This document shows, piece after piece, positions 17,158 through 64,000 of a DNA stretch of 64,000 nt (the first letter of the stretch is position 1; every line of letters starts with the position of its first letter). The notes under the pieces were generated by a model. That model saw nothing but the letters and a program-made list of their open reading frames with translations, did no database searches and was not told the origin of the DNA. The stretch comes from Paenarthrobacter sp. GOM3 (GTDB taxonomy: Bacteria; Actinomycetota; Actinomycetes; Actinomycetales; Micrococcaceae). The translations under genes were made by a program, and so were the position numbers. Location: positions 1,922,001 to 1,986,000 of the forward strand of contig NZ_CP136562.1 of NCBI RefSeq assembly GCF_018215265.2, in the 5' to 3' direction.

Positions 17158-17170
17158 TTTCTATGCACCC

Positions 17171-22306: not shown

Positions 22307-22384
22307 CGGCCGTCACGGATGTTACGAAGATGGCTGGGAATAGCCTGGACTTCTTTGTAGTTGTGGCAGAATAACAACACACAT

Positions 22385-22536
22385 ACGTGCTCCGGGGTCG
22401 GTGTAAGTCCGAACCGGCGGTTATAGTCCGCGACCCGCAAGCCATCAGGACCCAAGTTATTTGGGGCTTGGCGGCGAACGGTTGAATCGGTGAAATTCCG
22501 GTACCGACAGTTAAAGTCTGGATGGGAGAAGCACGT
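22385..22536 (+). promoter_or_regulatory. FMN riboswitch (RFN element)
   Basis: The conserved RFN core is directly readable: GGGGTCGGTGTAAGTCCGAA, then CCGGCGGTTATAGTCCGCGACCC, an expansion hairpin, TTGAATCGGTGAAATTCCGGTACCGACAGTTAAAGTCTGGATGGGAGAAG in segments, closed by ACGTGC/GCACGT at both ends. It binds FMN and should lower expression of the downstream ribM-rib operon when flavin is plentiful. Confidence 0.97.
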
Positions 22537-22542
22537 ACAGTC

Positions 22543-48692: not shown

Positions 48693-49052
48693 CTACGACG
48701 ACCTCTCTGAACTTACGTTCTCTGGCAGTGCGCGTCTTGCAGGTACGAGTTTCAAGCCGATGACAGAGCCAACGATTCCTGCGAGGAAGAGAATGCGAAG
48801 AACCGTCGGCGTCTCGTTACCCACGATCATTGCCCATGTGACCGTGAGTGCGGCACCGGTGCCCGTCCAGACTGCGTAGGCTGTGCTCATTGGTATTTTT
48901 TTGGCTGCATAGCCTAGTCCGAGCATGCTGAAAAGCAGCCCCAGTATGAAAACAGTTGTTGGTAGTGGTGCCGTGAAACCCTCGCTTTGTCCCAGGGCTG
49001 TTGCCCAGACGGCTTCGAGGACAGCGCTGGCAAGAAGAACGATCCAGTGCAT
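48693..49052 (-). CDS. SMR-family transporter subunit (second of a pair)
   Basis: The 119-residue protein has four transmembrane helices. The start MHWIVLLASAVLEAVWATALG carries the essential membrane Glu near residue 13, and KKIPMSTAYAVWTGTGAA is the family signature before helix 3. It ends with a charged tail. The ATG overlaps the stop of the partner gene by one base (TGATG), so the two form a paired SMR transporter like YkkCD/EbrAB. The closeness to SugE/Gdx suggests guanidinium-type or quaternary cation export by proton exchange. The exact substrate is inferred. Confidence 0.88.
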   Translation of the reverse strand: MHWIVLLASAVLEAVWATALGQSEGFTAPLPTTVFILGLLFSMLGLGYAAKKIPMSTAYAVWTGTGAALTVTWAMIVGNETPTVLRILFLAGIVGSVIGLKLVPARRALPENVSSERSS

Positions 49053-49366
49053 CAGCTGACCACCTTCAGTCCAATGACGCATCCAATCAAAGCTGTCAGG
49101 AGCGCGGTGCGTGCTATGGAGAGGCGCTCCTGCTTGCGGAGGACGGCGAGTACAGTGGTGAGGACCGCCCCGATGCCCACCCAGACGGCGTAGGAAGTGC
49201 CCGTGGGAAGCTCGGTCATTGCATAGGCCAGACCGGCCATGCTGATGGCCATGGATGCGACGAAGATGAAGGTGGGGATCTTCCGCTTGAAGCCGTTGGA
49301 TGCTCCAAGGGCTGTCGCCCAGACCGCTTCGAGCACCCCGGAGAGGATGAGTACAAGCCACGCCAT
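49052..49366 (-). CDS. SMR-family transporter subunit (Gdx/SugE-like, first of a pair)
   Basis: The 104-residue protein begins MAWLVLILSGVLEAVWATAL with the membrane Glu at about residue 13. It continues with AMTELPTGTSYAVWVGIGAV, very close in pattern to SugE/Gdx guanidinium exporters. Four helices fill the chain. It is coupled to the next SMR gene by one base, which points to a heterodimer with opposed subunits. No guanidine riboswitch motif is visible upstream; instead there are direct repeats that look like a protein-binding site. Confidence 0.9.
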   Translation of the reverse strand: MAWLVLILSGVLEAVWATALGASNGFKRKIPTFIFVASMAISMAGLAYAMTELPTGTSYAVWVGIGAVLTTVLAVLRKQERLSIARTALLTALIGCVIGLKVVS

Positions 49367-49510: not shown

Positions 49511-50908
49511 CTATGTAGTGCCATCCATGAGTTGTCCAAGAATGTTCAGCGCCTTCGACAGTTGAAGGTCGCTTACTGCGCCGTATCCGATGACCAGGCC
49601 GTTCATGGGCGTGCGGTCGGCGTAGTAGCCCGCCAAGGGGACTACACGGACTCCCAACTTCAGTGCATTCGCTGCCAGGGCTGCGGCGTCGGGTTGTTCG
49701 AAACGGATGACTGCGTGTAGCCCGCCGTCGAGGGCTGCGAGGTCAAGGTCCGTTCGGGAACCCAGGCGCTTCATGAGCAGGGAGCGGCGGTGGGAGTATT
49801 CCCTGCGGGCGCGCGTGATGTGTCGGGAGAGTCCGCCGCCGCGAATGTAGTGGGCCAGGGCTGATTGCAGGATTCCTGCCACCGGGGTGTCGAGGGCTTC
49901 GCGTGCCGCTTTGAGTTGTCGGCCGGCATCCCCGCGGACTGCCAGGTAACCGCAGCGCAGCCAAGGGCTCAGGTTCTTCGAGAAAGTTCCGACCAGCACC
50001 ACTTCGGCGGTGGCGGGAAGGGAGGCGACAGCGGGGAGGGGCATTCGGGTGTGTCGGAATTCGCTGTCGTAGTCATCTTCCAGGACGAGAACACCGTGCT
50101 GGTCAGCCCATTTCAGCAACCCTAGCCTTTCCTGAACCGCCATCCTGCCACCCAGCGGGTATTGGTGGCTGGGAGTCACCAGCACTGCATCCGGAATGTC
50201 CTTTAGTGCCGCCAGTTGCGAACTCTTCAGACCGTTTTCATCCACTGGGACCGTAACGAGTTGAGCTCCGGCGGCTGTTAGGACGCGTCGCGCCGTGGGG
50301 TAGCTGGGATCCTCAACCAGGATGCGTGGATGATCCCGCTTTCCGCGGAGCATAGCTACAACTAGTTGGAGGGCGTCACTGGTGCCGGCGGTGATGATGA
50401 TGTTCTCAGCGTCGACCGAGAGCCCTCGCGATACTGCCAGGTGACGGGCGACCGCGTCCCTGAGTGCCCATGTTCCCAGCGCTGGCGGGAGGTGAGTATT
50501 TCCCTCCTCTGACAAGGCAGCTTTCCAGGCGCTTCGCCATTCCCTGTCCTTGAAGGGCGCCCCGGATGGCCTGCCCGGGGTCAGATCAATAACGCCCTGG
50601 TCGGGAGGGTTGCTGTGTTGCTTTGTCTCCTGGCGGGGGAGTGTTTGAAGGTCCGGGCGCACTGCAACTTTCGTCCCGCCTGCTCCGTTGCTTTCCAGGA
50701 ACCCTTCTCCGGACAGCTGCTCGAACGCGCGCACCACAACACCTCGGGATATGCCCAGGTCCGTGGCGAGCCGACGGGTCGCTGGAAGCGTGTGCTCCGG
50801 CCGAAGGAGTCCGCTTAGGATTGCGTCGCGCAGTTGACTGGCCACCTGCGCGGACAGCGAGACAGGGCTTTGCCTGTTCAGTTCGATGGGTAGTTCCGCT
50901 TCGCTCAT
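49511..50908 (-). CDS. MocR-type GntR regulator with aminotransferase domain
   Basis: From the ATG at 50908, preceded by GGAGG, the protein has 465 residues. The winged helix (residues ~12-80) has ATRRLATDLGISRGVVVRAFEQL. A fold-type I aminotransferase-like domain follows, with the PLP Lys in VGTFSKNLSPWLRCGYL and LEDDYDSEFR before it. Such proteins use PLP adducts to sense amino acids or B6. It is divergent from a DHDPS-like aldolase gene and upstream of the SMR pair, so either could be its target. Confidence 0.9.
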   Translation of the reverse strand: MSEAELPIELNRQSPVSLSAQVASQLRDAILSGLLRPEHTLPATRRLATDLGISRGVVVRAFEQLSGEGFLESNGAGGTKVAVRPDLQTLPRQETKQHSNPPDQGVIDLTPGRPSGAPFKDREWRSAWKAALSEEGNTHLPPALGTWALRDAVARHLAVSRGLSVDAENIIITAGTSDALQLVVAMLRGKRDHPRILVEDPSYPTARRVLTAAGAQLVTVPVDENGLKSSQLAALKDIPDAVLVTPSHQYPLGGRMAVQERLGLLKWADQHGVLVLEDDYDSEFRHTRMPLPAVASLPATAEVVLVGTFSKNLSPWLRCGYLAVRGDAGRQLKAAREALDTPVAGILQSALAHYIRGGGLSRHITRARREYSHRRSLLMKRLGSRTDLDLAALDGGLHAVIRFEQPDAAALAANALKLGVRVVPLAGYYADRTPMNGLVIGYGAVSDLQLSKALNILGQLMDGTT

Positions 50909-50930
50909 TGGACCTCCGAAGTTGATGATT

Positions 50931-50953
50931 CTTGGACCTAGTGTAGGACCAAG
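50931..50953. promoter_or_regulatory. palindromic operator between mocR-type gene and aldolase gene
   Basis: Arms CTTGGACCTA and TAGGACCAAG around GTG match at 9 of 10 positions as an inverted repeat, and GGACC is also a direct repeat. Its central position in a divergent promoter suits binding by the adjacent MocR protein. Confidence 0.5.
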
Positions 50954-51030
50954 CAATTTGGAAGCATGAACCCATACCCAGTCACCGCTCTGCATAGAGC
51001 TGACCCGCAAACAACGAAAGCAGGATTTCC

Positions 51031-51918
51031 GTGTTCAACGGCCTTAGTGCATTCCCTCTGTCACCCATGAACGGCGAAAACGTCGATTTGGACGCCGTGG
51101 CCAAGCTGGTCACCCGGGCAGCTCGGGCCGGGGTGGACTCCCTGGGCGTCCTCGGCTCAACGGGCAACTACGCCTACCTGGCACGCGACGAACGCCGTGC
51201 AGTCCTGGAGACGGCAGTGGGTGCGGCCGACGGCGTTCCGGTTCTCGCCGGCGTCGGGGCAGTACGCGCCAGGGACGTGTTGGTGCTGGCAGAGGACGCC
51301 CAAAGCGCCGGCGCTTCGGCGTTGCTGCTTGCCCCCGTGTCTTACCAGCGCCTGACCGAAACAGAAGTCTTTGGCCTGTACGAAGATGTCGCCGCCGAAT
51401 CATCACTTCCCATCGTTGTTTACGACAACCCCGGCACCACCGGCTTCACTTTCACTGATGACCTGCACGGTCGCATCGCCCGGATCCCCGGAATCGCGTC
51501 AATCAAGATTCCGCCGCCCGGCGCAGACGCGATGGCCAGCCGGCTGGAAAAGCTCCGCTCCGTTTTGCCGGAGGACACGTCGGTGGGCATCAGCGGCGAC
51601 TGGGTAGCGGCCGAAGCCCTGCTTGCCGGCTGTGACCTCTGGTATTCCGTCATCGCAGGGGTGCTCCCGCACCAGGCCAGGACCATCGTCGATCATGCCC
51701 TGGCCGGGCGCCGGGACCAGGCACTCGAAGCATCGACCGAGCTGGAACCGCTGTGGTCGCTGTTCCGCGCCTACGGCAGCCTCCGTGTCACAGCGGCCCT
51801 CGCTGAGGATCTCGGATTGATTCCGTCAGGGGCACTGCCTCGTCCGCTGCGAGGATTGGACAGCGAAGGCCGAAGCAAGCTGGGTGAGGCCATCAGCGCG
51901 ATTGGTTTGGAGGCCTGA
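51031..51918 (+). CDS. dihydrodipicolinate synthase/N-acetylneuraminate lyase family aldolase
   Basis: The 295-residue TIM-barrel protein starts at GTG. It has the substrate carboxylate motif GSTGNYAYL (residues 42-50, GTTGE in true DapA), the catalytic Tyr131 in IVVYDNPGT and the Schiff-base Lys159 in ASIKIPPPG. The class I aldolase mechanism is therefore intact. The altered GTTGE motif argues for a catabolic pyruvate-dependent aldolase or dehydratase rather than lysine synthesis. It lies divergent to a MocR regulator and 30 bases before an MFS gene, suggesting uptake and cleavage of one compound. Confidence 0.85.
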   Translation: MFNGLSAFPLSPMNGENVDLDAVAKLVTRAARAGVDSLGVLGSTGNYAYLARDERRAVLETAVGAADGVPVLAGVGAVRARDVLVLAEDAQSAGASALLLAPVSYQRLTETEVFGLYEDVAAESSLPIVVYDNPGTTGFTFTDDLHGRIARIPGIASIKIPPPGADAMASRLEKLRSVLPEDTSVGISGDWVAAEALLAGCDLWYSVIAGVLPHQARTIVDHALAGRRDQALEASTELEPLWSLFRAYGSLRVTAALAEDLGLIPSGALPRPLRGLDSEGRSKLGEAISAIGLEA

Positions 51919-51947
51919 CCGATGCCGGTTTCTTCGCGGAGTCAGTC

Positions 51948-53186
51948 GTGAGCCTTCCCGACGGCCGCGTCCAGCTCGGCCAGGTTCCGGAGAGGCCCAC
52001 CACTCGAGGGGGCCTTGCCCGCTATGTGCTCGCCGCCACGCTCGCCCGTAGCGCCGACGGCGGTGCCGTTGTTGCGATCGTCCTGCTCGTGACAACCAGC
52101 GGAGCCCCTGGCTGGCTTGCCGGTATTCTCGGCGCCTGCATCACCGCACCGCATCTCCTCGGTCCTCTCATCGCCCGGCGTCTGGACACGGCCCGTGACG
52201 GCCGGATGGTGATCGCCATGGCCTGCATGGCGCATGGGGTGACGCTGGCAGCCGCCGTTCTTCTGTATCCGCTCACGTGGCCGATCGTGCCTGCCTTGCT
52301 GCTCATTGCGTCCGGGTTGGTTGGTCCCCTCTTGACAGGCGGTATCAGCAGCCGATTGGCCGCAATTGCCGGAAGTGACAGGACAAGTCAGCGCCGTGCG
52401 CAGGGTTGGGATGTGGCTACCTACGGCATCGGAGGCACGATCGGGCCGTCGTTGGTTGCGGCCGTCTCCGCGTGGGCGGATCCGGCTGTGGCGGCGTTGA
52501 TCCTTGCAGGATCGACCTTCGCCGCGGCTGCAATGGTCAGGCTATTGCCGTACGCGCCTCCAGCGGCCGCGCCCTCGGAGATTCCCCGCCCTGGCAAGAC
52601 GTTGCTGATGATGGTCTCGCACGGTCCTCTGCGCCGCACGCTCTACCTGACGGTCGTCGTCGCCCTGTCGGTGGCGGCACTGCCGATCACCGCGGTCGCC
52701 TCAACGGGCGAACTGTCCGTGGACCCAGCCGCAGCAGGTGTTCTGACTGCGGCCTATGGGCTCGGCGGACTTATAGGCTCTGCCGGGGTGATGATCCGCC
52801 CCATGCGAACTGACGCGGACCCTTTGATGACCTGGCTAGGAGCCGCCGTGGGCGCTGCCTTGTGCGGGGCCGCCGTCGCTGGCGTGTTCCCTGTAGCTGT
52901 CGCGGCATACTCCCTCGCCGGTATCCTCAACTCCTACTTCTTTGCAGCTACCTTGGCATCCCGCAGCGAATACGCCCCAGCCGCCGTGCGCGGTCAGGTG
53001 TTCGTTTGGATCGGAGCATTGAAAATCACTGCAGGGTCCGCCGGCACAGCCTTGGCCGGAGCCATCATCGCACCGGCAATCCAGCTGCCGCTGTTCCTCG
53101 CAGCCGGACTCATCGCTGTTGCCACGGTGGCATCGGTCCTTGACCGTCATCGTGAGCATAAGATTCCCACGAAGGTTGCCTCGTAG
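51948..53186 (+). CDS. MFS transporter
   Basis: The 412-residue protein starts at a GTG with GGAG seven bases before. It has about 12 hydrophobic segments and a short loop with RRLDTARDGR, the cytoplasmic MFS motif between helices 2 and 3. It most resembles the efflux-type branch with broad, undefined substrates. It is the second gene after the DHDPS-like aldolase and is probably co-transcribed, ending in a good terminator. Confidence 0.85.
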   Translation: MSLPDGRVQLGQVPERPTTRGGLARYVLAATLARSADGGAVVAIVLLVTTSGAPGWLAGILGACITAPHLLGPLIARRLDTARDGRMVIAMACMAHGVTLAAAVLLYPLTWPIVPALLLIASGLVGPLLTGGISSRLAAIAGSDRTSQRRAQGWDVATYGIGGTIGPSLVAAVSAWADPAVAALILAGSTFAAAAMVRLLPYAPPAAAPSEIPRPGKTLLMMVSHGPLRRTLYLTVVVALSVAALPITAVASTGELSVDPAAAGVLTAAYGLGGLIGSAGVMIRPMRTDADPLMTWLGAAVGAALCGAAVAGVFPVAVAAYSLAGILNSYFFAATLASRSEYAPAAVRGQVFVWIGALKITAGSAGTALAGAIIAPAIQLPLFLAAGLIAVATVASVLDRHREHKIPTKVAS

Positions 53187-54043: not shown

Positions 54044-55261
54044 CTACTTCCCGGGGAACGTCTTGTCCAGTGCGTTGAGGATGTCATCCACAAGATCTTC
54101 GGCATCCTCGAGACCGATCGACAGACGCATGTGGCCGTACTTGTGGAACGACTCCGGGTAGTTTTCCGAGCCTCCGCGTGCGTCCGGGCCAACATGGACG
54201 ATCAGGGATTCATCATGGCCAAGGGACACTGCAGAAGTAATGACCTGCAGGTTGTTGACGAAACGGTTCTGGGTGTCGGAGTCACCGTCCACGGCGAAGG
54301 CAAGTACACCGCCGTAACCACGGCCGCCGAACTGCTTGGCGGCGGTTTCGTGCTGCGGATGGGATGCCAGGCCCGGGTAGAGGACGTAGGCGACCCGTGG
54401 GTCTGATTCCAGCACTGCAGCTACTTTCTCGGCGCTGGAGAAGTGCTGCTTGAGTCGCAACGGCAGTGTGACGGAGCCGCGCATGATCATCCAGGCGTTG
54501 AACGGGGAGATCACACCGCCTACCTCGACGACGGCTTCGTGCTTGATGTGCTGGATGAGCTCCCGGCGTCCGGCGACCACCCCGCCCATGGCGTCGCCAT
54601 GGCCGTTGATGTACTTGGTCAGCGAGTGGACGACCAGATCGGCCCCGTCATCGAGGGCCCGATAGAACGGGGCCGGCGTGAAGGTGGCATCGATGCTGAA
54701 CAGGACGCCTGCATCCTTGGCAATGCGGGACAAGGCCGCAACGTTGGCGACCTTGGTGGTCGGATTGGCGATGGTTTCAGCGTGGATGAGCTTCGTGTTG
54801 GGGCGCACCGCGGCCTGGACAGCTTCAAGGTCGGCCACGTCGACGAAGGTGACTTCGATGCCGTATTTCTCGGGGAGGAGCTCACCGAACAGGCGGTAGA
54901 CGGCCTCGTAGGTGACGTTGGAAACCACGACATGATCGCCGACTTTGAGGAGGCTGAAGAAGATTCCGTGCAGTGCCGCCACGCCTGTGGCGAAGGCAGC
55001 GGCGGCTTCGGCGCCCTCCATGGCTGCCAGCTTGGTTTCGAGCGCCACCGAGTTCGCACCGGAAGTCCTGTTGTAAACCAATCCGTCATCCACACTCGAC
55101 CAGTCCATGTCGGAAGGGTCCTCGGGCAGCAGGTAGGAGTTGGCCATGATCAGGGGGGTGCGGAGGGCTCCGGTGCCCTTGTCGATGTTGTTTCCACCAT
55201 GGACCGCCCAGGTGTAGTCATGGACGGAGTCACGGTTGTGCTTATCTGGGTTTCGCTTCAT
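54044..55261 (-). CDS. Cys/Met-metabolism PLP gamma-lyase, candidate canavanine gamma-lyase
   Basis: The 405-residue protein is a member of the cystathionine gamma-lyase/methionine gamma-lyase family. The Schiff-base Lys216 is in HSLTKYINGHGDAMGG, the pyridine-N Asp191 in SIDATF, and the phosphate-site Tyr63/Arg65 in VYNRTSGANS. Tyr118 is kept, but the usual YGGT/YGCT loop reads YEAV, so the Cys of methionine gamma-lyase is missing. That suggests another gamma-substituted substrate. It ends the group RidA, XRE-cupin, B3/4 protein, Lrp. Because a standalone B3/4 tRNA-editing protein accompanies it, I infer canavanine gamma-lyase, giving homoserine and hydroxyguanidine. Methionine gamma-lyase or cystathionine lyase remain possible. 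Confidence 0.8.
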   Translation of the reverse strand: MKRNPDKHNRDSVHDYTWAVHGGNNIDKGTGALRTPLIMANSYLLPEDPSDMDWSSVDDGLVYNRTSGANSVALETKLAAMEGAEAAAAFATGVAALHGIFFSLLKVGDHVVVSNVTYEAVYRLFGELLPEKYGIEVTFVDVADLEAVQAAVRPNTKLIHAETIANPTTKVANVAALSRIAKDAGVLFSIDATFTPAPFYRALDDGADLVVHSLTKYINGHGDAMGGVVAGRRELIQHIKHEAVVEVGGVISPFNAWMIMRGSVTLPLRLKQHFSSAEKVAAVLESDPRVAYVLYPGLASHPQHETAAKQFGGRGYGGVLAFAVDGDSDTQNRFVNNLQVITSAVSLGHDESLIVHVGPDARGGSENYPESFHKYGHMRLSIGLEDAEDLVDDILNALDKTFPGK

Positions 55262-55294
55262 TGCTGGTGTTTCCTTTCGGATGGGGGTGCATCG

Positions 55295-55765
55295 TCAGCT
55301 GCCAATGGTTTGAGGCGTCAGGCGATGACAGAAAAGGGGTTGGGTTGTTGACACGTCGAGGGCCAGGACCGCCGACTGAACCTTAAAAAAGGTGGTGATC
55401 TTCTCAAGCCGGTCAAGGTCAGGGACCTGGAGTCTCAGGAGAAATGTGTGGTCGTTGTCCACGAGTTCGGCTGTGGTGATTTCCGGGACGGATTCCATGC
55501 TGCGTTGCAGGTCGTGCCCGGTGCGTCCGGACGCCTGCACGATTCTGATGAGAGCGGATATGGGTCTCGTGGCTGGATCGGGATAGTTGCGGATAATCGT
55601 GTACCCGCCGATGTGCCCGTCCAGTTCGAGTCTGAAGATTCGTTCGGCGCACTGGCCTTCGGTCAGGCCGGTACGTAGAGCGATCGTTGTGCTCGGAAGC
55701 CTGCCCTCGTCCTGGAGAATCCCCAGGATCTTCACGTCCATCGGGTCCAGCTCAGGTGCGTTCAC
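55295..55765 (-). CDS. Lrp/AsnC family transcriptional regulator
   Basis: From a GTG at 55765 with AGGA upstream the protein has 156 residues. The N-terminal HTH is in DPMDVKILGILQDEGRLPSTTIALRTG and the C-terminal RAM/ligand domain runs from about residue 65 (ISALIRIVQASGRTGHDLQ). Longer readings to 55885 are not supported. It sits between the B3/4 gene and the gamma-lyase, 33 bases before the latter, and likely senses the amino acid being degraded. Confidence 0.88.
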   Translation of the reverse strand: MNAPELDPMDVKILGILQDEGRLPSTTIALRTGLTEGQCAERIFRLELDGHIGGYTIIRNYPDPATRPISALIRIVQASGRTGHDLQRSMESVPEITTAELVDNDHTFLLRLQVPDLDRLEKITTFFKVQSAVLALDVSTTQPLFCHRLTPQTIGS

Positions 55766-55781
55766 AGCATCCTCGCTCCGG

Positions 55782-56519
55782 TTACTGTCCGGGCTTGTGG
55801 CCGTCGGACTGAACCAGTTGCTGAGCGGTGACGACCTCCGGGCCCAGGAGGAGCAGGTGCCCTGTGAGGTCCTTACCGGCGGCAAGCAGAGCTTCGGTGG
55901 TCATCGGTTCGAGGGCATCGAGAATGAACAACGCCGAGGTCGTGTCGTCACGCAGTTGCGTGCGGCGGCCTTGGCGCCAGTTCCAGCGGCGGCACGTCAC
56001 GCCGTCCTCGTCGCACCAGACAACTTCACCTGCGTCCGGGTACTCGATGATTGGTTCCCCGCTGGCCATTGTGTCGAAGGGTTCTTGGCCCGTCGCACGG
56101 ATCAGCCGGGGTGCTCCGCGGTAGCTGGCGAGGTCCTCGCCGCCGAGCGGAATCTGGTGCAGCACTGAGATGGCGTTGTAGAGGTCGGTGAGCCTGTTGA
56201 CCCGGGGAAGGCCTGCATCCGCGCGGCGGACCAGGGCTTCGAGGCTGTTGCGGGTGCGGTTGGGCTTGGCTCCGAACGACTGGTACGCCTCCCGCCACGC
56301 AGCAACGTGCGGGAGGTGTTCGACTTTGTGCTTGCTCAGTGCGGCCCGGGCAGCAGCTTCAGCCTGTTCCAGTAAGGTGTTGCCGGCTTCATCGCTGGGT
56401 TCCTGGACGAGTCCGTCGACAGCGATCAGCAGAGCCCGGTAGTCGGGTCGAAGCTCGAATACGTCGGGCGCGACGTGTGCTTCGTTGAGGAGCTCCTGAA
56501 GAGAATGGGTGTTATGCAT
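55782..56519 (-). CDS. standalone B3/4 (PheRS-beta-like) tRNA-editing domain protein, CtdA-like
   Basis: From the ATG at 56519 the protein has 245 residues and is one B3/4 domain with no synthetase parts. The core is FGAKPNRTRNSLEALVRRAD then GLPRVNRLTDLYNAISVLHQIPLGGEDL in parts, matching the editing domain of phenylalanyl-tRNA synthetase beta. Freestanding B3/4 proteins hydrolyse wrong aminoacyl-tRNAs; CtdA removes canavanine from tRNA(Arg). Next to a gamma-lyase this fits protection against a toxic arginine analogue. It overlaps the XRE-cupin stop by 8 bases and is 16 bases before lrp. Confidence 0.85.
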   Translation of the reverse strand: MHNTHSLQELLNEAHVAPDVFELRPDYRALLIAVDGLVQEPSDEAGNTLLEQAEAAARAALSKHKVEHLPHVAAWREAYQSFGAKPNRTRNSLEALVRRADAGLPRVNRLTDLYNAISVLHQIPLGGEDLASYRGAPRLIRATGQEPFDTMASGEPIIEYPDAGEVVWCDEDGVTCRRWNWRQGRRTQLRDDTTSALFILDALEPMTTEALLAAGKDLTGHLLLLGPEVVTAQQLVQSDGHKPGQ

Positions 56520-57114
56520 TGCCGGTCTCCCGATGCCCTGACCCGACGCCGCGCTCAAATACGGCGAGGGAGAACCGTGCGGCCTCGGCGCTGTCGTTCG
56601 TGTACGAATGGGCTACGTCGCCAGGGAAGGTGACCGAGTCGCCAACTTCCAGAATGACCGTCGCGTCTCCCGCGACAACCGTGACCGTTCCTTCTTGAAC
56701 CTGCAATAGCTCTTTCGTACCGGGAGTATGCGCCTCGCTGGAGTGCTGGTCACCGGGGCCGAGCGTCCAATCCCACAGTTCAACAACTTCCGGCGGTTCG
56801 GTTCCGGCGACGAGAACGCCGCGTCCACCTGTTTCGCTGCTCCACAACACGGCACCTTCGCCCTTGCGGGTCACTTTTACGGCCTTTGGTTCGGGGGACT
56901 GGACCAGGTCCGGGAGCCCTACTCCGAGGGCGTTGCTGATCCGCAACAGCGTGCCGACGCTGGGGTTCATCGTCGCCTGTTCCACGTTGACAAGCATGCG
57001 ACGGCTGACACCGGCGGCTTCGGCGAGTTGGTCCAGGGTCCAGCGGCGTGCCTGACGCTCCTGCTTGACCCGTACCCCGATGGCCGAGGCCAGGGTTGCG
57101 ATGTTTTCATCCAT
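56512..57114 (-). CDS. XRE-family regulator with C-terminal cupin domain
   Basis: From the ATG at 57114 the protein has 200 residues: an XRE HTH at ~10-65 (WTLDQLAEAAGVSRRMLVNVEQ), a linker, and a cupin domain at ~105-185 (KELLQVQEGTVTVVAGD, VTFPGDVAHSY). Such regulators bind small ligands in the cupin and often repress their own operon. A 15-base palindrome lies 14 bases upstream of the start. It leads the B3/4-Lrp-lyase group. Confidence 0.9.
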   Translation of the reverse strand: MDENIATLASAIGVRVKQERQARRWTLDQLAEAAGVSRRMLVNVEQATMNPSVGTLLRISNALGVGLPDLVQSPEPKAVKVTRKGEGAVLWSSETGGRGVLVAGTEPPEVVELWDWTLGPGDQHSSEAHTPGTKELLQVQEGTVTVVAGDATVILEVGDSVTFPGDVAHSYTNDSAEAARFSLAVFERGVGSGHRETGNA

Positions 57115-57127
57115 AAATGCAGCATAC

Positions 57128-57142
57128 TGCACTTGCAGTGCA
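57128..57142. promoter_or_regulatory. palindromic operator of the XRE-cupin gene
   Basis: TGCACTTGCAGTGCA is a perfect inverted repeat (TGCACT-TGC-AGTGCA) in the leader just before the XRE-cupin start, a typical autoregulatory site. Confidence 0.6.
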
Positions 57143-57246
57143 CTTTCAAGATTTGGGTTGGCAATTCGGTCTCAAATACGCGTTAGCCGCCACCGCTTTG
57201 GAAACGGGGGCGGCTCACTTGCGCGGTCTGGTTCGTGGTCAGCAGG

Positions 57247-57639
57247 TTATGCGGTGTCCGGGAGTACGGCCAGGACTTCGATCTCCACGAGAACGCCCGG
57301 AGCCAATTCGGCTCCAACGGTCACCCGGGCCGGGTACGGTTCGGGTACATGCCGGCCGTAGGCGGCGTCGAACTCGTCAAAGTCCTGATCGGTGGAGAGG
57401 TAGACACGGCTGATCAGCACGTCGGACCAGCCGGCGCCGCCGTGGGCAAGGATCGCGTCAATCTGGGCCAGAACCTGTGACACCTGCTCGGTGACGCTGC
57501 CTTGGAGAATGCCGCCGGTTTGAGGGTCAATGGGGATCTGACCGGAGACCTGGAGGAAGCGGCCGATTTGTTTGGCCTGGCTGTAGGAGCCGACTGGTGC
57601 CGGGGCGTTGGGTGCTTCGATGACGCGGTTTACGGACAT
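57247..57639 (-). CDS. ridA: RidA-family reactive imine/enamine deaminase
   Basis: The 130-residue protein has the YjgF/RidA pattern: APVGSYSQAKQIGRFLQVSGQIPIDP at the start, the substrate-binding Arg in YPARVTVGAEL near residue 105, and VEIEVLAV at the end. RidA hydrolyses reactive 2-aminoacrylate/2-aminocrotonate-type imines released by PLP lyases. It lies 46 bases after the APC permease and 130 bases before the XRE-cupin gene, all on the minus strand, so it likely cleans up after the nearby gamma-lyase. Confidence 0.92.
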   Translation of the reverse strand: MSVNRVIEAPNAPAPVGSYSQAKQIGRFLQVSGQIPIDPQTGGILQGSVTEQVSQVLAQIDAILAHGGAGWSDVLISRVYLSTDQDFDEFDAAYGRHVPEPYPARVTVGAELAPGVLVEIEVLAVLPDTA

Positions 57640-57685
57640 GTTCGTCCTTTCCTTGCTTGGTGGTGGTCAGGTGGTGCGGCGCGCC

Positions 57686-59110
57686 TTACGGAACGGGGAG
57701 TGGTTCTTTCGCCGGCGCCTGACGAAGCCGGGAGTGGCGGATGGAGTAGGTGATGTAGAACGCGGTGGCCAGCAGGAGCCATGCGATGAACGCGATCAGG
57801 GTGACCGGACGAAGGTCCTTGATGATCCAGAGGCACCCGATGATGGAAAGGATCGGCACGACCGGGTACAGCGGGACTTTGAACGGGGCGGGCTGGTTCG
57901 GGTTCTGGGCGCGTCGGATGATCACGGCCAGGGCCACCACGATGAACGCGACCAGTGTGCCGATGCTGGTCATTTCGGCAAGGAAGCTGATGGGCAGCAA
58001 TCCTGCGAGCACGGCGACAGCGGAACCGGTGATGAACGTGCCGGCAATGGGTGTCCGGGTGCGTGCGTTGACGCGGGAGAACACTGGGGGCACGAGCCCG
58101 TCGGTGCTCATTGCGAAAAAGATGCGGGTCTGGCCGTACAGCACAACCAGGGTCACGCTGAAAATGGAGACGATGGCGGCAAGGGCCAGCACGGTGCCGG
58201 GCCAGCTGGCGTTGGTAACGGTCTGCAGGATCGCCGCCAATCCGGCTTCCTGTCCTTCGAAGGCCTGCGTTTCCTGGGCTCCGATGGCCACCACAGCGAC
58301 AGCGATGTACAGAGCCGTGACGACTCCGAGGGTGATGATGATGGCCAGCGGCATGGTGCGGGACGGGTTTTTGGCTTCGTTTCCTGCGGTGGAGACCGCG
58401 TCCAGTCCGATGTAGGAGAAAAAGATGATGCCGGCAGCACCGGTAATGCCAGCTATGCCCATCGGGGCGAAGTTGGAGAAGTGGTCTTGGTTCCACCCCG
58501 TCACCCCAACGACAATGAACATCACCAGCACGGCGAGTTTGATCATCACCATGGCTGCGTTGGCTTTCGCGGATTCCCTCACTCCGCGCACCAGCAGCAG
58601 CGTGCACATGGCAACCAGGGCGATGGCGGGCAGGTTCACAACACCGCCGGCTTCGGGTGCACTGGACAATGCCTCGGGGATGCGGACCCCGAACAGGTTC
58701 TCCAGGGCCTGGTTCAGGTACTCGGACCAACCCACGGCGACAGCTGCCCCCGAGACGCCGTACTCCAGCAGGAGGCAGGCGCCCACGGCGAGGGCCGGGA
58801 ATTCGCCCAGTGTCGCGTAGGCGTAGGAATAGGACGAGCCGGAGGCGGGGATGGCGCTGGCCATCTCCGCGTAGCAGAGGGCAGTGAGTCCAGCCACGAC
58901 CGCGGCAATCACGAAGGACCAAATCACAGCCGGGCCGGCGACGGGAACAGCTTGGGAGAAGACGATGAAGATACCGGTTCCCACGGTGGCCCCGATGCCG
59001 AGCATGGACAGCTGGAAAGTGCCCATGCTGCGGGTCAGTGCTGGCTGCTCCGTGGATTGCTGCGTTCCTGGTGTCGTTCTGCGAAAGAGAACGTGGCGAA
59101 GTGAAGACAT
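57686..59110 (-). CDS. APC-family amino acid permease
   Basis: The 474-residue protein has about 12 transmembrane spans. The first carries LSMLGIGATVGTGIFIVFSQ, an APC motif, and CYAEMASAIPASGSSYSYAYATLGE follows in parts. FFSYIGLDAVSTAGNEAKNPSRTMP is typical of the CAT/cationic branch. It probably imports the substrate of the downstream genes, possibly a basic amino acid such as canavanine. It is the first minus-strand gene of the group and divergent from the LysR gene. Confidence 0.88.
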   Translation of the reverse strand: MSSLRHVLFRRTTPGTQQSTEQPALTRSMGTFQLSMLGIGATVGTGIFIVFSQAVPVAGPAVIWSFVIAAVVAGLTALCYAEMASAIPASGSSYSYAYATLGEFPALAVGACLLLEYGVSGAAVAVGWSEYLNQALENLFGVRIPEALSSAPEAGGVVNLPAIALVAMCTLLLVRGVRESAKANAAMVMIKLAVLVMFIVVGVTGWNQDHFSNFAPMGIAGITGAAGIIFFSYIGLDAVSTAGNEAKNPSRTMPLAIIITLGVVTALYIAVAVVAIGAQETQAFEGQEAGLAAILQTVTNASWPGTVLALAAIVSIFSVTLVVLYGQTRIFFAMSTDGLVPPVFSRVNARTRTPIAGTFITGSAVAVLAGLLPISFLAEMTSIGTLVAFIVVALAVIIRRAQNPNQPAPFKVPLYPVVPILSIIGCLWIIKDLRPVTLIAFIAWLLLATAFYITYSIRHSRLRQAPAKEPLPVP

Positions 59111-59350
59111 CTAAAAGTTCCTAGCGTTATGGCCTGACCAGAGGTCAGGTGGTCCTGCCTCCACGGCGTCCGTGGCGCAAGGCAGGACGGTCACTGAGCG
59201 GGAGGGGCTCCTGCCCCGTGACCGGAGATCGGCAAAGACAAGTTGTGAACACTGCGGGAGCCGAATTACTGCTGTTGGATCCCGCTGCTGTTCGTCACGC
59301 ACCGCCGCCTGATCGGGCGGCCAAACTGTGACCTGTGTCAATGCTAGATA

Positions 59351-59396
59351 TGATTAAGCACCGTGCCAATGGCATATATTCTAATCAATGATTAAG
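59351..59396. promoter_or_regulatory. A/T-rich divergent promoter with TGATTAAG repeats
   Basis: TGATTAAG occurs at 59351-59358 and 59389-59396 in the A/T-rich region between the APC permease and LysR genes. The 295-base gap holds no gene. The repeats may be LysR sites, but the second one overlaps the translation start region. Confidence 0.35.
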
Positions 59397-59405
59397 GCAA
59401 GCCTT

Positions 59406-60350
59406 ATGGATCCGTATCAACTCAGCGTCTTGCGTGAACTCGGTGATCATGGCAGTGTGGCCGCTACAGCCCGCGCCCTCGGGGTCAGTCCTTCCGCTGT
59501 ATCGCAGTCCCTTGGGGCCCTTCAGCGCAAATTCAAGGCCCCGTTGACCCAGAAGCGGGGACGCTCCGTGGAGCTCACCGACGCCGGTCAGGCTCTTGCG
59601 GTCGCGGCCATCGCCGTCTCGGAAGCGATCACCCGGGCGGAAGCAACCGTTGATGAGTTCGTTGGGGGCATCGACAGGACGGTGCATATCAGCGCCTTCC
59701 ACAGTGCCGCGATGACGTTCTTTCCTGATCTGGCGGCGTTGGAAAATACGGAAGGATTCCCGGTGGTTGAATGCGTCGATGAGGACGTTGACAGGTTCTC
59801 GTTCCCGGCCCTGACGGCCAGCTATGACATCGTCATTGGCCATAGGATGAGTCACACACCTCCCTGGCCCCGGGACAGGCTTGCAGTGTTGTCGCTGTTG
59901 CGCGAACCCATGGACGTGGCCATGCACTCCTCCCACGATCTGGCCATGAAGAAGACCCTCAAGCCCTCAGACCTCGTGGGGACCACGTGGATTTCGACGC
60001 ACACAGGGTTTTCGCCCGCTGACATGCTCGACGCCGTCGCCGCCGCGGCGGGGCATCCGATGCGGGTGGTGCACCGCATCAATGATTTCAGCACTGCCGC
60101 GGCCATGGTCTCCGAAGGCGGACATCTGGCATTACTGCCCCGGCACACGGTCCGGATCCCGGCGTCCCAGGACGTCGTTCTGCGACCTCTCCAGGGTCTG
60201 GAGACAGTTCGCCATGTGGACATGCTGATCCGGCCCGAAAGGGTCGTCCACAGAGCAGTCGCAGTCGTCATCGATGCCCTGCGCGAAATCGCCCAGTCAC
60301 ATGTTCAATCCCCCTCAGTCAGGAGCCCCAGTGCCGAAGAGTCCCCGTGA
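59406..60350 (+). CDS. LysR-family transcriptional regulator
   Basis: I choose the ATG at 59406 (AAGG upstream), giving 314 residues; 59388 is an alternative. The HTH is QLSVLRELGDHGSVAATARALGVSPSAVSQ in parts, near residues 4-35, and the substrate domain runs from about residue 85. It is divergent from the APC permease, the usual layout for a LysR regulator and its target. Its end overlaps the following lrp gene by 20 bases. Confidence 0.9.
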   Translation: MDPYQLSVLRELGDHGSVAATARALGVSPSAVSQSLGALQRKFKAPLTQKRGRSVELTDAGQALAVAAIAVSEAITRAEATVDEFVGGIDRTVHISAFHSAAMTFFPDLAALENTEGFPVVECVDEDVDRFSFPALTASYDIVIGHRMSHTPPWPRDRLAVLSLLREPMDVAMHSSHDLAMKKTLKPSDLVGTTWISTHTGFSPADMLDAVAAAAGHPMRVVHRINDFSTAAAMVSEGGHLALLPRHTVRIPASQDVVLRPLQGLETVRHVDMLIRPERVVHRAVAVVIDALREIAQSHVQSPSVRSPSAEESP

Positions 60351-60786
60351 TGAGATAGATGCGCAGATTCTTGCCGAGCTTCGGCGCAATGCCCGCATCA
60401 GCCTGGCCCAGCTGGGGGAGAAGGTGCTGCTGTCCCGTAACGCGGTCCGGCAGCGAATTGAGCGGTTGGAACGGGACGGCTACATCAGCGGCTACACCAT
60501 CAAGGAATCAGCAGGAGACGGGATCCCCACCGTCAATGCCGTGTTGTTGATTCAGCGACATGACCGCATGCGGGGCAGCGACGTGATTGCGGGTTTGCGG
60601 GCCATCCCGGAAATCGCCACCTGCGATGTGGTCAGCGGCGAGCTTGATCTCATCGTCAGGGTGGAGGCGCCGGACGCCGCAAGGATCCAGGAGATTTGGA
60701 GGCAGGTCTCGGAGTTCCCCGGAGTCCGTGACATCACCACCGCGCTGTCCCTTTCGACCGTGATTGACAGGCAGGTGCCTCGCTGA
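60331..60786 (+). CDS. Lrp/AsnC family transcriptional regulator
   Basis: A GTG at 60331 with AGGAG five bases upstream gives 151 residues. The HTH is DEIDAQILAELRRNARISLA and LLSRNAVRQRIERLERDGYI; the C-terminal RAM domain starts near residue 65. It is translationally coupled to lysR by a 20-base overlap. Its convergent neighbours are the aspartase operon genes, which it may control. Confidence 0.9.
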   Translation: MPKSPRDEIDAQILAELRRNARISLAQLGEKVLLSRNAVRQRIERLERDGYISGYTIKESAGDGIPTVNAVLLIQRHDRMRGSDVIAGLRAIPEIATCDVVSGELDLIVRVEAPDAARIQEIWRQVSEFPGVRDITTALSLSTVIDRQVPR

Positions 60787-60814
60787 GGCCTGAACCCTTT
60801 CGGTAGTTAAAAGA

Positions 60815-60854
60815 ATCCGGCGTTGCGGAAACGAGTATGTCCGCAACGCCGGAT
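60815..60854. terminator. terminator between lrp and aspA
   Basis: A perfect 15-bp stem (ATCCGGCGTTGCGGA and complement) with an 11-base loop lies between convergent genes. On the minus strand it is followed by TTCTTTTAA, so it mainly serves the aspA operon; on the plus strand it can end lrp. Confidence 0.85.
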
Positions 60855-61001
60855 GTGCTTCAGGCGGATCAGAGCAGGAAGAGGCGACCACGCCTTCAGC
60901 GGCGCCGGGGCGGTAGTGCAGGTCCAGGAAGAAGCTCAGTGCCAAGCATCACTTGCTGTTCTGGCCGTCCGCTCCGACGAGCATTGTGCCTCCAGGCAGG
61001 A

Positions 61002-62396
61002 TCAGGCGTTCATCAGGGCCTCGACCTGCTCGGGCTGGAGCAGGCCCTCACTGACAGCAATGTCGAAGACACTCTGCCCCGAGACGAGTGCCCTGTGGGC
61101 GACCTTGGCTGCCACCGCGTACCCCAGGACGGGCAGCAGCGCCGTGGCCTGGGCCGTGGACGCGCGTGCCCTGGACCGAAGCAGCGCTTCGTTGGCTTCG
61201 ATGCCGGTGACGCATAGCTCGCGCAGGACGTCGCAGCCGTTCGTCAGCCAACTCAGTGACTGCAGTAAGGCGTGGGCGATGACCGGCTCGAACGCGTTCA
61301 GCTGAAGCTGTCCGTTGTCAGCTGCCATGGTGACAGTGACATCGGCGCCGGCGACTAAGAATGCAATCTGATTGATGACCTCGGGGATGACCGGGTTGAC
61401 CTTGCCGGGCATGATCGAGGAGCCCGCTTGCCGCGGGGGCAGCCGGATCTCAGCGAGCCCTGTCTGGGGTCCGCTGGACAGCAGGCGCAGGTCACTGCAG
61501 ATTTTGGAGAGCTTGATGGCAGTGCGTTTGAGTGCCCCGGAGAACGTCATGAACGCCCCGGTATCCCAGGTTGCTTCAACAAAATCGTGGGCACGGGTCA
61601 ACTGGACCCCGCTGACCGCAGAAAGCTTGTCGATGACCCGCTCCACATAGTGCGGGTCCGCGGTGATGCCGGTGCCGATCGCTGTGGCGCCGAGGCTGCA
61701 TTCGCGCAGCAGGGCGGCTGCTTCGCGAAGGCGGCGCTGGTCTTCCTCGAGCGTGACGGCGAAGGCAATGAATTCCTGCCCGAGCGTCATGGGCACCGCG
61801 TCCTGCAATTGCGTGCGTCCGATTTTGGGGATGTCCGCGAATGCGTGGCCGCGTTCGGCGAACGATTCGGACAACAGGGCCAGTTGCTTCAGCAGGTCTT
61901 CGAGTGCGAACACGAGGGCCAAGCGCACGGCTGTCGGGTAGACATCATTGGTGGACTGGCATTTGTTGACGTGCCCGATCGGGTCGATCACTCCGTAGGA
62001 CCCCCGGGGGTGACCCAGTGACTGCAGCGCCAGGTTGGCGATGACCTCGTTGGCGTTCATGTTCGTCGAGGTTCCTGCCCCGCCCTGGATGACGTCCACG
62101 GGGAACGCGTCGTCGACCTCGCCGGAGGCTACTGTGTCGCAGGCCGAGGCGATCGCTAAGCCAATCTCGTCCGGGATCAGGCCCAGCTCGGTGTTGGTCA
62201 GGGCCGCGGCCTTCTTCACAACCGCGAGGGCGCGGACGAGGTGACGGTGGGTTCCCAGCTGGATGCCGCTGATCGGGAAATTGAGGATCGCCCGTTCAGT
62301 GTGGATGCCCCACAGTGCGGATGTAGGGACGGCCAAGGAGCCCAGGCTGTCCCGTTCGATCCTGATTCTGGTTTCATGTCCGGTGCTGGTCCTCAT
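61002..62396 (-). CDS. aspA: aspartate ammonia-lyase
   Basis: The 464-residue protein is a fumarase/aspartase superfamily member with GSSIMPGKVNPVIPEVINQ, the catalytic serine loop, near residue 320. GGAGTSTNMNANEVIAN and GHVNKCQSTNDVYPTA are the other two conserved regions. The chain length and the STNMNxNEV pattern favour aspartase over fumarase, although the two cannot be fully separated by eye. It deaminates aspartate to fumarate and ammonia. It overlaps the aldehyde dehydrogenase gene by four bases (ATGA), as last gene of its operon. Confidence 0.88.
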   Translation of the reverse strand: MRTSTGHETRIRIERDSLGSLAVPTSALWGIHTERAILNFPISGIQLGTHRHLVRALAVVKKAAALTNTELGLIPDEIGLAIASACDTVASGEVDDAFPVDVIQGGAGTSTNMNANEVIANLALQSLGHPRGSYGVIDPIGHVNKCQSTNDVYPTAVRLALVFALEDLLKQLALLSESFAERGHAFADIPKIGRTQLQDAVPMTLGQEFIAFAVTLEEDQRRLREAAALLRECSLGATAIGTGITADPHYVERVIDKLSAVSGVQLTRAHDFVEATWDTGAFMTFSGALKRTAIKLSKICSDLRLLSSGPQTGLAEIRLPPRQAGSSIMPGKVNPVIPEVINQIAFLVAGADVTVTMAADNGQLQLNAFEPVIAHALLQSLSWLTNGCDVLRELCVTGIEANEALLRSRARASTAQATALLPVLGYAVAAKVAHRALVSGQSVFDIAVSEGLLQPEQVEALMNA

Positions 62397-63808
62397 GAGG
62401 CGATCGCAATGACTTTGGGTTGGGTCATTTCCTCGTAGGCGAAGTGGACGCCTTCGCGGCCCATGCTGCCGTACTTCGAGCCGCCGAACGGCATGGCGTC
62501 GTGTCGGTAGTCGGAGGAATCGTTGATCATGACACCGCCGGCGTCGATGGATTTGGCGGTCTGCAAGGCGCGGTTGAGGTCCTTGGTGAACACGCCGGCC
62601 TGCAGCGCGTACTCGCTGTCGTTGGCCAGTTCGATGGCTTCCTCAGCGGTGTCGAACGCTTCAATTAGGACGACCGGTGCGAACAGTTCCTCGCTCCAGG
62701 CCTCGCAGGTCCGGGGCACTCCGGTGAGCACGGCAGGGGTGAGGACCGGCCCGTTAAGGATCCCCCCGGTCAGCAGTTTCGCCCCGGCCGCTACGGCCTC
62801 ATCGATCTTCCGCTTCGCTTCGGCGGCGGAGTCGTGGCTGATCATCGGTCCGACATCGGTGTGTTCGTTGCGGGGGTCGCCGGTTTTCAGCGTGGCGGTT
62901 TGGGTGACAAAGGCCTCAAGGAAGGTCTCGAACACTGGGCGTTGGACAAGGATCCGCTGTGCGCCGATGCAGTTCTGCCCGGCTGCCCAGAACGAACCGG
63001 ACACACTGGCCTCGACGGCTGCTGGGATGTCGGCGTCGTCGAAGACGATGACGGGGGCATTACCGCCAAGTTCCATGGAAAGGCGCTTGATTCCGGCATT
63101 CGCGGCGATGGCCCGGCCCGTGGCGAATCCTCCGGTGAAGGAGACCATGCGAACCAGTTTGGAGGAGATGATGGTTTGCGCGACTGTCCGGTCACCGAGG
63201 ACAACGGTGACGAAGTCTGAGGGCAAGCCGGCCTCGCGCAACAGGTCCACCAGGAGAATGGCCGTCAAGGGTGTCAGCTGGGAGGGTTTGAGGATGACGG
63301 TGTTGCCGCCGGCGATGGCCGGGCCGAGCTTGTGGGCCACCAGGTTCAACGCGTCGTTATAGGGAGTAATCGCTGCGATGAGCCCCAGTGGTTCACGGGT
63401 GAACCAGCCCTGTCGGTTCTCCGAACCTGCGAACGAGTCGAACGGAACGACTTCGCCGACGTTCCGGCGGGTTTCCGCTGCCGACAGCTTGAGCGTGTTC
63501 ACCGCGCGGGAGACTTCCTTGCGGGCCTGCTTGATGGTTTTCCCTGCCTCGGCGACAATCAACTCCGCGACCTTTTGCGACCGCTGCTGCAACAGTTCCG
63601 CAGCGGAATCCAGGATCCGTCCGCGCTCGTGGCGGGGCATGGCCGCCGCTGCCGGAGCGGAGGCCGCGGCACGGATGAGCTCGACGCGTACATCCGCCTC
63701 ACTGCATTGGGGAAGGGTGGCCAGAACGGTACCGTCAAACTTGTTCCGCACCACCAGGTCTTTGATGGTGGCTTCGCTGTTGGTCTCGGCGATGGCTGTT
63801 TCAGGCAC
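62393..63808 (-). CDS. aldehyde dehydrogenase, candidate aspartate-semialdehyde-oxidising enzyme
   Basis: The GTG at 63808 has AAGGAG seven bases upstream and gives 471 residues. Catalytic residues are Cys280 in WAAGQNCIGAQR and Glu246 in RLSMELGGNAP, with Asn151 in AAITPYNDALN. It belongs to the NAD(P)-dependent, non-phosphorylating ALDH superfamily near lactaldehyde and succinate-semialdehyde dehydrogenases. Its genomic setting between a homoserine-dehydrogenase-like gene (8-base overlap) and aspartase (4-base overlap) suggests oxidation of aspartate semialdehyde to aspartate. The start at 63877 is less likely. Confidence 0.85.
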   Translation of the reverse strand: MPETAIAETNSEATIKDLVVRNKFDGTVLATLPQCSEADVRVELIRAAASAPAAAAMPRHERGRILDSAAELLQQRSQKVAELIVAEAGKTIKQARKEVSRAVNTLKLSAAETRRNVGEVVPFDSFAGSENRQGWFTREPLGLIAAITPYNDALNLVAHKLGPAIAGGNTVILKPSQLTPLTAILLVDLLREAGLPSDFVTVVLGDRTVAQTIISSKLVRMVSFTGGFATGRAIAANAGIKRLSMELGGNAPVIVFDDADIPAAVEASVSGSFWAAGQNCIGAQRILVQRPVFETFLEAFVTQTATLKTGDPRNEHTDVGPMISHDSAAEAKRKIDEAVAAGAKLLTGGILNGPVLTPAVLTGVPRTCEAWSEELFAPVVLIEAFDTAEEAIELANDSEYALQAGVFTKDLNRALQTAKSIDAGGVMINDSSDYRHDAMPFGGSKYGSMGREGVHFAYEEMTQPKVIAIAS

Positions 63809-64000
63809 GGACGGCTCCTTTGGCGAATTCGTCAACGGCAATGATGTCGGAAATGAGGGCGTAGGCTGTTTCGACACGTCCGGCTCCCGGACCGGACACC
63901 GTCACAGCGCCAAGCAGGTCGGTGGTGAAGGACACGGCATTGGTGGCACCGGAAATGCCAGCCAGCGGGTGATCGGCCGGGAGGGCTTTGGGCTGGACGG
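63801..64000 (-). CDS. homoserine dehydrogenase-like protein, C-terminal part
   Basis: The last ~66 residues of a gene that enters from beyond the window are visible on the minus strand. They read LPADHPLAGISGATNAVSF, then TTDLLGAVTVSGPGAGRVET and AYALISDIIAVDEFAKGAVR. This matches the C-terminus of homoserine dehydrogenases of the standalone, ACT-less type. It would oxidise homoserine to aspartate semialdehyde. The stop overlaps the ALDH start by 8 bases. Only the tail is seen, so the assignment is moderate. Confidence 0.7.
   Translation of the reverse strand, partial: VQPKALPADHPLAGISGATNAVSFTTDLLGAVTVSGPGAGRVETAYALISDIIAVDEFAKGAVRA

Follow-up and report, generated by a model that had tools for sequence, protein, structure and literature searches.

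The right-hand part of the window analyzed here, i.e., bases 1922001-1986000 (64,000 nucleotides) of the single-contig 4.46 Mb genome of Paenarthrobacter sp. GOM3, carries a gene set that is, by sequence, a nearly complete canavanine locus, an actinobacterial variant of a known pathway. Our reading is that this locus serves canavanine catabolism and self-protection, with a probability of about 0.87. The evidence that carries it consists of gene content, phylogeny, conserved neighborhoods and a conserved palindrome, all observed directly, and at its center a pyridoxal phosphate (PLP)-dependent lyase, a relative of the canavanyl-tRNA deacylase CtdA and the genes leading from homoserine to aspartate were found together. 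New here are the operator that we predict, the pair of exporter genes and a lyase-free relative of the locus that occurs more commonly. Canavanine is described in PMC10018355 as a legume compound used for defense and nitrogen storage. The features of the locus are as follows (window positions).

48693..49052, minus strand: small multidrug resistance (SMR) transporter subunit B (SugE/Gdx-like), 119 aa; PF00893, 66.2 bits; SugE model, 69.9 bits, below the cut-off of 126
49052..49366, minus strand: SMR transporter subunit A, candidate hydroxyguanidine exporter; PF00893, 76.1 bits
49446..49463: operator-like site upstream of the SMR pair; 1 mismatch to AGTGCA-N6-TGCACT, central AT missing
54044..55261, minus strand: candidate canavanine gamma-lyase, PLP enzyme (Cys_Met_Meta_PP), 405 aa; PF01053, 339.4 bits
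55295..55765, minus strand: Lrp/AsnC-type regulator; PF13404, 42.9 bits
55782..56519, minus strand: CtdA1, standalone B3/4 protein (B3_4), candidate canavanyl-tRNA(Arg) deacylase; PF03483, 77.1 bits
56512..57114, minus strand: XRE-cupin regulator, ATG at 57114; PF01381 and PF07883
57116..57133: predicted operator AGTGCAGTATGCTGCATT (minus strand) with 1 mismatch; its end is one base upstream of the XRE start codon
57247..57639, minus strand: RidA-family protein; PF01042, 108.7 bits; TIGR00004, 106.6 (cut-off 106.25)
57686..59110, minus strand: APC amino-acid permease, candidate canavanine importer; PF13520, 179.4 bits, and AA_permease_C
59388..60350, plus strand: LysR regulator, divergent from the APC permease; PF03466, 85.1 bits
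60274..60786, plus strand: Lrp/AsnC regulator (AsnC2), conserved with the homoserine pathway; PF01037, 50.6 bits
61002..62396, minus strand: aspartate ammonia-lyase (aspartase, AspA); NF008909, 667.4 bits (cut-off 510); TIGR00839, 581.2, below the cut-off of 681.2
62393..63808, minus strand: aldehyde dehydrogenase (ALDH), candidate aspartate-semialdehyde oxidizer; PF00171, 481.3 bits
63801..64000, minus strand: homoserine dehydrogenase (HSD), C-terminal end only; the open reading frame (ORF) runs past the window, to 64955 at most

All genes named in the original prediction were recovered, as ORFs and by family searches. Start codons were chosen by us, and those given on the minus strand were verified as ATG or GTG. 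Overlaps join the ORFs of the XRE regulator and CtdA1, of HSD and ALDH, and of ALDH and AspA. The last 200 bases of HSD lie inside the window, and the whole ORF, present in L003, scored 436.8 bits with NF004912 (cut-off 373). The proposed homoserine-to-fumarate genes match annotated operons of R. leguminosarum and Mesorhizobium. The extent first assigned to the cluster, 54044..64000, holds for the core genes but not for the boundaries, since likely or possible members lie on both sides, above all the SMR pair at 48693-49366.

The proposed relation of the B3/4 protein to CtdA was borne out by sequence, and the contrary outcome, that the two are unrelated, did not occur. The best PDB match of CtdA1 was 9f7e, 'CtdA Canavanyl tRNA Deacylase' (182.9 bits; the match spans residues 33-254 of an ORF of 258 codons), and PF03483 was its sole Pfam match. 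The CtdA of P. agronomica (L017), which by our count shares 221 of 226 aligned residues with 9f7e, is encoded 4.2 kb from a lyase that is 69% identical to that of the window; CtdA1 is 46% identical to this CtdA over 210 residues, and the RRWNWRQG-RT stretch is common to both. According to PMC10018355, CtdA activity was shown by the protein of P. canavaninivorans and by one of C. perfringens that has 35% identity; the same paper states that the P. canavaninivorans CtdA gene immediately precedes the canavanine operon and that the R. leguminosarum gene is co-localized with degradation genes. A second copy, CtdA2, 68% identical to CtdA1, was found 12.5 kb away, beyond the window. Since the two copies form sister groups inside the lyase-bearing Micrococcaceae (tree support 97/90), and since one other genome (L039) holds both, CtdA was likely duplicated within this lineage. 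In Deinococcus, Streptomyces and Sinorhizobium (L122, L124 and L126), genes annotated as flavin mononucleotide (FMN)-binding/pyridoxamine-phosphate-oxidase-type lie immediately before CtdA.

The lyase tree, midpoint rooted, comprised 72 rows, with the characterized canavanine lyases represented by relatives; 6 of the 78 rows were omitted, i.e., the fragments or repeats L048, L053, L055, L066 and L067 and the overlong L008. The window's lyase was placed in a 45-row clade (support 100/99) together with 10 Pseudomonas and 5 Rhizobiales rows, its closest relatives being those of Arthrobacter and Paenarthrobacter, and outside it were the annotated methionine gamma-lyase (MGL) gene megL (L094) and the genome's own paralogues, of which five were included. 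Hence, the lyase did not cluster with MGLs, the outcome that the original prediction had named as contrary to it, and 14 of the 15 Pseudomonas and Rhizobiales loci of its clade carry CtdA. Several lineages of actinobacterial lyases diverge outside those of Proteobacteria, and the G+C content of the cluster is 0.626 compared with 0.633 for the window, so that a recent horizontal island is not indicated. The Brevibacterium lyase sits with those of Rhizobiales, with modest support in this midpoint-rooted tree.

We take Cys116 and the Lys-Asp pair 240-241 to be the important active-site residues of MGL. At the Cys column (YGCT) each of the 46 close lyases (L008 and the 45 clade rows) has Ala, and at the Lys column (GVKDITGG) each has Val. 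In the Asp column, 39 lyases had Asp, 6 (the window's lyase being one) had Glu and 1 had Gly. Aligned to megL, the window's lyase therefore shows Ala, Val and Glu at the three columns, and the MGL signature is absent.

We then compared the neighborhoods of 60 lyase loci. The window's own genome was not counted, the partial loci L048 and L053 were omitted, several contigs end early, and 10 loci with distant lyases (38-46% identity) served as controls. In the order Micrococcaceae, other Actinomycetota, Pseudomonas, Rhizobiales, Burkholderiales, Bacillota/Synergistota and controls, CtdA was present in 5/6, 5/12, 10/10, 4/5, 0/11, 0/6 and 0/10 loci; HSD in 2/6, 3/12, 8/10, 4/5, 1/11, 0/6 and 0/10; the Lrp protein AsnC2 in 2/6, 6/12, 10/10, 5/5, 1/11, 0/6 and 0/10; SMR in 3/6, 5/12, 10/10, 3/5, 0/11, 0/6 and 0/10; and ALDH in 3/6, 4/12, 10/10, 5/5, 11/11, 0/6 and 5/10. 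Because CtdA, HSD, the Lrp protein and SMR are found repeatedly near close lyases and occur in none of the controls, the grouping of these genes is not due to chance; ALDH is less telling, because half of the controls have it. The ALDH of the window is 55-63% identical to that of the Pseudomonas and Rhizobiales loci. The APC permease was also found in lyase loci L004, L005, L021 and L091, and the LysR regulator in 6 of the 18 other actinobacterial lyase loci. RidA, proposed earlier as a pathway member, is present in the window but not conserved, being found in 1 of 44 loci with lyases of 62-99% identity. In rhizobial and Bosea loci (L087:3949-5199, L089:4127-5329 and L127:8813-9955), the helix-turn-helix and B3/4 genes are adjoined by a further Cys/Met-family PLP enzyme, either a second or an alternative one. 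In Burkholderiales loci L024, L026-L029, L031, L032, L034-L036 and L040, ALDH lies nearby and no CtdA or SMR match was found.

The genes listed in the original prediction are present, but the list lacked the second CtdA and a candidate exporter of hydroxyguanidine. The latter is the tandem SMR pair, which occurs likewise in L004, L005 and L039. The best PDB match of subunit A was 6wk5, 'Multidrug resistance protein, SMR family', with 75.1 bits vs 36.2 bits for the best EmrE entry; 6wk5 is presumably Gdx-Clo. SugE was the best NCBIfam model, although below its cut-off. Both subunits carry Glu13, Trp16, Ser42 and Tyr59, which are important in Gdx. Hydroxyguanidine was secreted by P. canavaninivorans, according to PMC11018352. 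No guanidine riboswitch was detected in the window or in L003 at the Rfam gathering thresholds, and none of the guanidine-I class, the one at which the genome search was aimed, was detected genome-wide.

Beyond the right edge of the window we found an AlaX-like protein, a second PdxS, an EamA exporter, CtdA2, an ArgP/LysG regulator (341.1 bits, cut-off 197) and an amino-acid ABC transporter. The EamA protein is RhtA-like, with 137.3 bits in the RhtA model (cut-off 354). The AlaX-like protein, with its HxxxH and CxxxH motifs, and PdxS are encoded between EamA and HSD (L003:11095-11973 and L003:12059-12976). Neither is supported as a core member, because among the 60 lyase loci AlaX was found in none and PdxS in 1, at 40% identity. 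This PdxS is 96% identical to another genomic copy, and the AlaX-like protein belongs to a wide family; 7 of the 120 relatives listed reach at least 72% identity, and one of these is named (Arthrobacter sp. StoSoilB5).

The XRE-cupin gene adjoins CtdA in both Actinomycetota and Proteobacteria, and we predict that its product recognizes an AGTGCA-N6-TGCACT operator, imperfect copies of which precede XRE-CtdA1, CtdA2 and the SMR pair. The palindrome GTGCA-N6-TGCAC was found around the XRE start in 10 of 18 lyase-free modules (described below), and any palindrome reached at most 3 in 50 shuffles. With up to 2 mismatches to AGTGCAnnATnnTGCACT allowed, sites were found at 16 of the 18 XRE genes, compared with a mean of 0.05 and a maximum of 1 in 20 shuffles, the motif having been derived from the same loci. 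Among loci outside the motif discovery, the exact GTGCA-N6-TGCAC core was present in L010, L011, L093 and L150, and two of these loci, L010 and L011, have the site between the SMR pair and the divergently oriented XRE-CtdA-lyase genes. In the window, the position of the 1-mismatch site (57116-57133), directly before the start codon at 57114, suggests repression of a leaderless transcript. CtdA2 is preceded by a 2-mismatch site, and the site of the SMR pair, which has no central AT, counts as a 1-mismatch site solely against the looser AGTGCA-N6-TGCACT and does not figure among the genome-wide sites counted below. The SMR genes of L004 and L005 have 1-mismatch sites 101 and 110 bp upstream, and those of L039 only a 4-mismatch site. 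A different pattern, GTCA-N6-TGAC, was observed in the XRE-CtdA gap of 8 of 15 proteobacterial loci (0.045 by shuffling), although it was first noticed in the same loci.

Two further observations concern this motif. A perfect AGTGCAnnATnnTGCACT site occurs just once in the genome, in front of another XRE-cupin and EamA pair, which has no CtdA (L154:5231-6774, near 4224229). A Clavibacter plasmid from a Medicago isolate (L093:7364-8753) carries XRE-CtdA with the exact operator core, and a lyase match was absent from the 13.6 kb examined.

In the scheme that we infer, which covers substrate, reactions, transport directions, ligand of the regulator and sign of regulation, canavanine would be imported by the APC permease and perhaps also by the amino-acid ABC transporter, and canavanyl-tRNA(Arg) would be deacylated by CtdA1 and CtdA2. 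The PLP lyase would cleave canavanine to hydroxyguanidine and homoserine; the former would leave the cell through the Gdx-like SMR pair, and the latter would be converted by HSD, ALDH and aspartase via aspartate semialdehyde and aspartate to fumarate and ammonia. The cupin-XRE protein may sense canavanine or a product of it and repress its own gene, CtdA and the SMR exporter via AGTGCA-N6-TGCACT, and the homoserine operon would be controlled by the conserved Lrp protein.

Other explanations have to be weighed against this scheme. The lyase could be an MGL or another enzyme of sulfur amino acids, with neighbors devoted to methionine or homoserine turnover. Its best PDB matches are indeed MGLs and its best NCBIfam score is that of met_gam_lyase, but this score (313.4 bits) is far under the cut-off of 549.7, and the lyase remained below the cut-off for all 25 families listed of the 64 matched. 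Most close lyases retain the Asp of the MGL Lys-Asp pair, so that it is Cys and Lys that set these enzymes apart from MGL; both are replaced throughout the close lyases, and on these residues and the tree we reject MGL identity. Furthermore, it is hard to see what CtdA and a Gdx-like exporter would do in methionine catabolism, and we regard a sulfur enzyme as highly improbable. The locus could also handle another guanidino or oxy-guanidino amino acid, e.g., a microbial arginine antimetabolite, with canavanine as a side substrate. CtdA without the lyase in 40 of 295 family genomes (at the threshold used) would fit this proposal, as would the fact that the CtdA results in the available part of PMC10018355 concern canavanyl-, arginyl- and homoarginyl-tRNA only. 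However, the gene set is the same as in the rhizobial and Pseudomonas loci that this part of the paper ties to canavanine, and elimination to homoserine would suit an O-linked side chain, which makes a different main substrate quite improbable. A role in detoxification alone, in which the lyase and CtdA are protective and the homoserine genes form an unrelated adjoining operon, draws support from HSD being present in just 5 of the 18 other actinobacterial lyase loci. It appears unlikely to us, because HSD and ALDH accompany the lyase in Pseudomonas (8/10 and 10/10) and Rhizobiales (4/5 and 5/5).

Several observations weigh against canavanine catabolism as the role of the locus, or against parts of the scheme. 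The Burkholderiales lyases belong to the same clade and their 11 loci hold neither CtdA nor SMR, so that clade membership alone is no proof of a canavanine substrate; these lyases may have another substrate, or protection may be encoded elsewhere. In addition to the low HSD count, just 10 of the 18 other actinobacterial lyase loci have CtdA, although some contigs are short. As for the operator, the cluster of this genome contains no perfect site, sites with up to 2 mismatches occur genome-wide at 10 places vs 8 for a reversed-pattern control, a 1-mismatch site at L155:2662 (1997161) has no XRE or CtdA gene adjoining it, and no operator site was found in L039, L091, L117 and L119.

To place the locus in its family we used E-value thresholds of up to 1e-150 for the lyase and up to 1e-20 for CtdA. 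Among 295 Micrococcaceae genomes the lyase was found in 1, this genome, and CtdA in 41; among 396 genomes of the phylum the lyase was found in 3, this genome included. Twenty lyase-free CtdA regions were picked from the 40 genomes, some of them without a DHDPS-like (dihydrodipicolinate synthase-like) gene being chosen deliberately, and they contained XRE-cupin in 18, EamA in 18, the DHDPS-like gene in 12 and an MFS gene in 6 cases. In 25 of the 40 lyase-free genomes (26 genomes when this one is counted) CtdA has a DHDPS-like gene no more than 5 kb away, vs about 0.1 expected by chance, and such a gene is also found by CtdA in Pantoea and in 8 of 10 Pseudomonas lyase loci. Against this link, the DHDPS subfamily was also found in 79 sampled genomes without CtdA. 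XRE-CtdA-EamA, often with the DHDPS-like enzyme, is thus a candidate lyase-free resistance module. A more specific proposal, which we hold tentatively and consider doubtful, is that Micrococcaceae and some other bacteria possess a lyase-free canavanine resistance module under one operator, in which CtdA would proofread, EamA would expel canavanine, and the Schiff-base lysine of the DHDPS-like enzyme would act on a canavanine-derived 2-keto acid, e.g., by eliminating hydroxyguanidine from 2-oxo-4-guanidinooxybutyrate; some actinobacteria, this one included, would have arrived at a complete catabolic cluster by adding the lyase and the homoserine genes to this module and duplicating CtdA.

The window itself has a DHDPS-like gene among the remaining features left of the lyase.

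49511..50908, minus strand: MocR-type PLP-binding regulator, named from its sequence alone; membership in the canavanine set uncertain
51031..51918, plus strand: DHDPS/NAL-family enzyme; PF00701, 124.2 bits; best PDB match 2r8w
51948..53186, plus strand: MFS transporter adjoining the DHDPS-like gene; PF07690, 33.5 bits
53287..53931, minus strand: Flavin_Reduct-domain protein downstream of the lyase; PF01613, 50.7 bits; membership uncertain

The DHDPS-like enzyme scored 126.2 bits with the dapA equivalog model, below the cut-off of 206.15. A MocR homologue adjoins DHDPS-MFS in L004-L007 and in lyase-free genomes. The MocR-DHDPS-MFS unit (49511-53186) was also observed in genomes that have neither lyase nor CtdA, e.g., L132 and L133, which weakens the case for the window's DHDPS-like gene as a partner of CtdA. 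Of the 12 CtdA-linked DHDPS genes of lyase-free regions, 11 fall outside the group of the window gene and 1 (L110) occupies a third place in the same subfamily. A homologue of the Flavin_Reduct protein was found in 1 of the 44 close-lyase loci (L009). Elsewhere in the window there is an FMN riboswitch (RF00050, 95.8 bits, 22383-22538) and a cluster of seven tRNA genes (16259-17242), some of which score equally and are perhaps duplicated.

We are unsure of the taxonomic novelty of an actinobacterial canavanine locus. No report of an actinobacterial canavanine lyase was found by title or abstract opening, in a search that most subscription journals lie outside of, and words beginning with actinobacteri- or Arthrobacter are absent from the main text of PMC10018355. 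For canavanine and cupin nothing on the subject was found by title, and canavanine with dihydrodipicolinate led to root hairs. If our reading is true, a further large group of soil bacteria that consumes canavanine would widen the range of those that shape the legume rhizosphere. The presence of CtdA in 41 and of the lyase in 1 of the 295 genomes suggests that in this family sample tolerance of canavanine is commoner than its consumption.

A canavanine utilization operon of Pseudomonas canavaninivorans was reportedly described by Hauth et al. in 2022. The 10 Pseudomonas loci related to that operon hold the lyase, CtdA, Lrp, ALDH and SMR in 10 cases each, XRE in 9 and HSD in 8. The locus described here differs from them in having a tandem SMR pair rather than a single gene, the APC permease and LysR, two CtdA and another predicted operator; aspartase lies inside it, whereas it was found in 0/10 of the Pseudomonas loci. 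The R. leguminosarum pRLN3 locus (L087) resembles it in its annotated helix-turn-helix protein, B3/4 protein, ABC transporter, lyase-type PLP enzyme, SMR, HSD, ALDH, aspartase, Lrp and ArgP, but has one CtdA, a regulator divergent from CtdA, and dapA and a phosphotransferase gene within the operon; no homologues of the window's APC permease and LysR were found in it. Compared with the Gdx guanidinium exporters of the SMR family, the exporter here is a two-gene pair whose expected cargo would be hydroxyguanidine rather than guanidinium, and, in contrast to the characterized CtdA (PMC10018355; PDB 9f7e), the deacylase is represented here by two paralogues.

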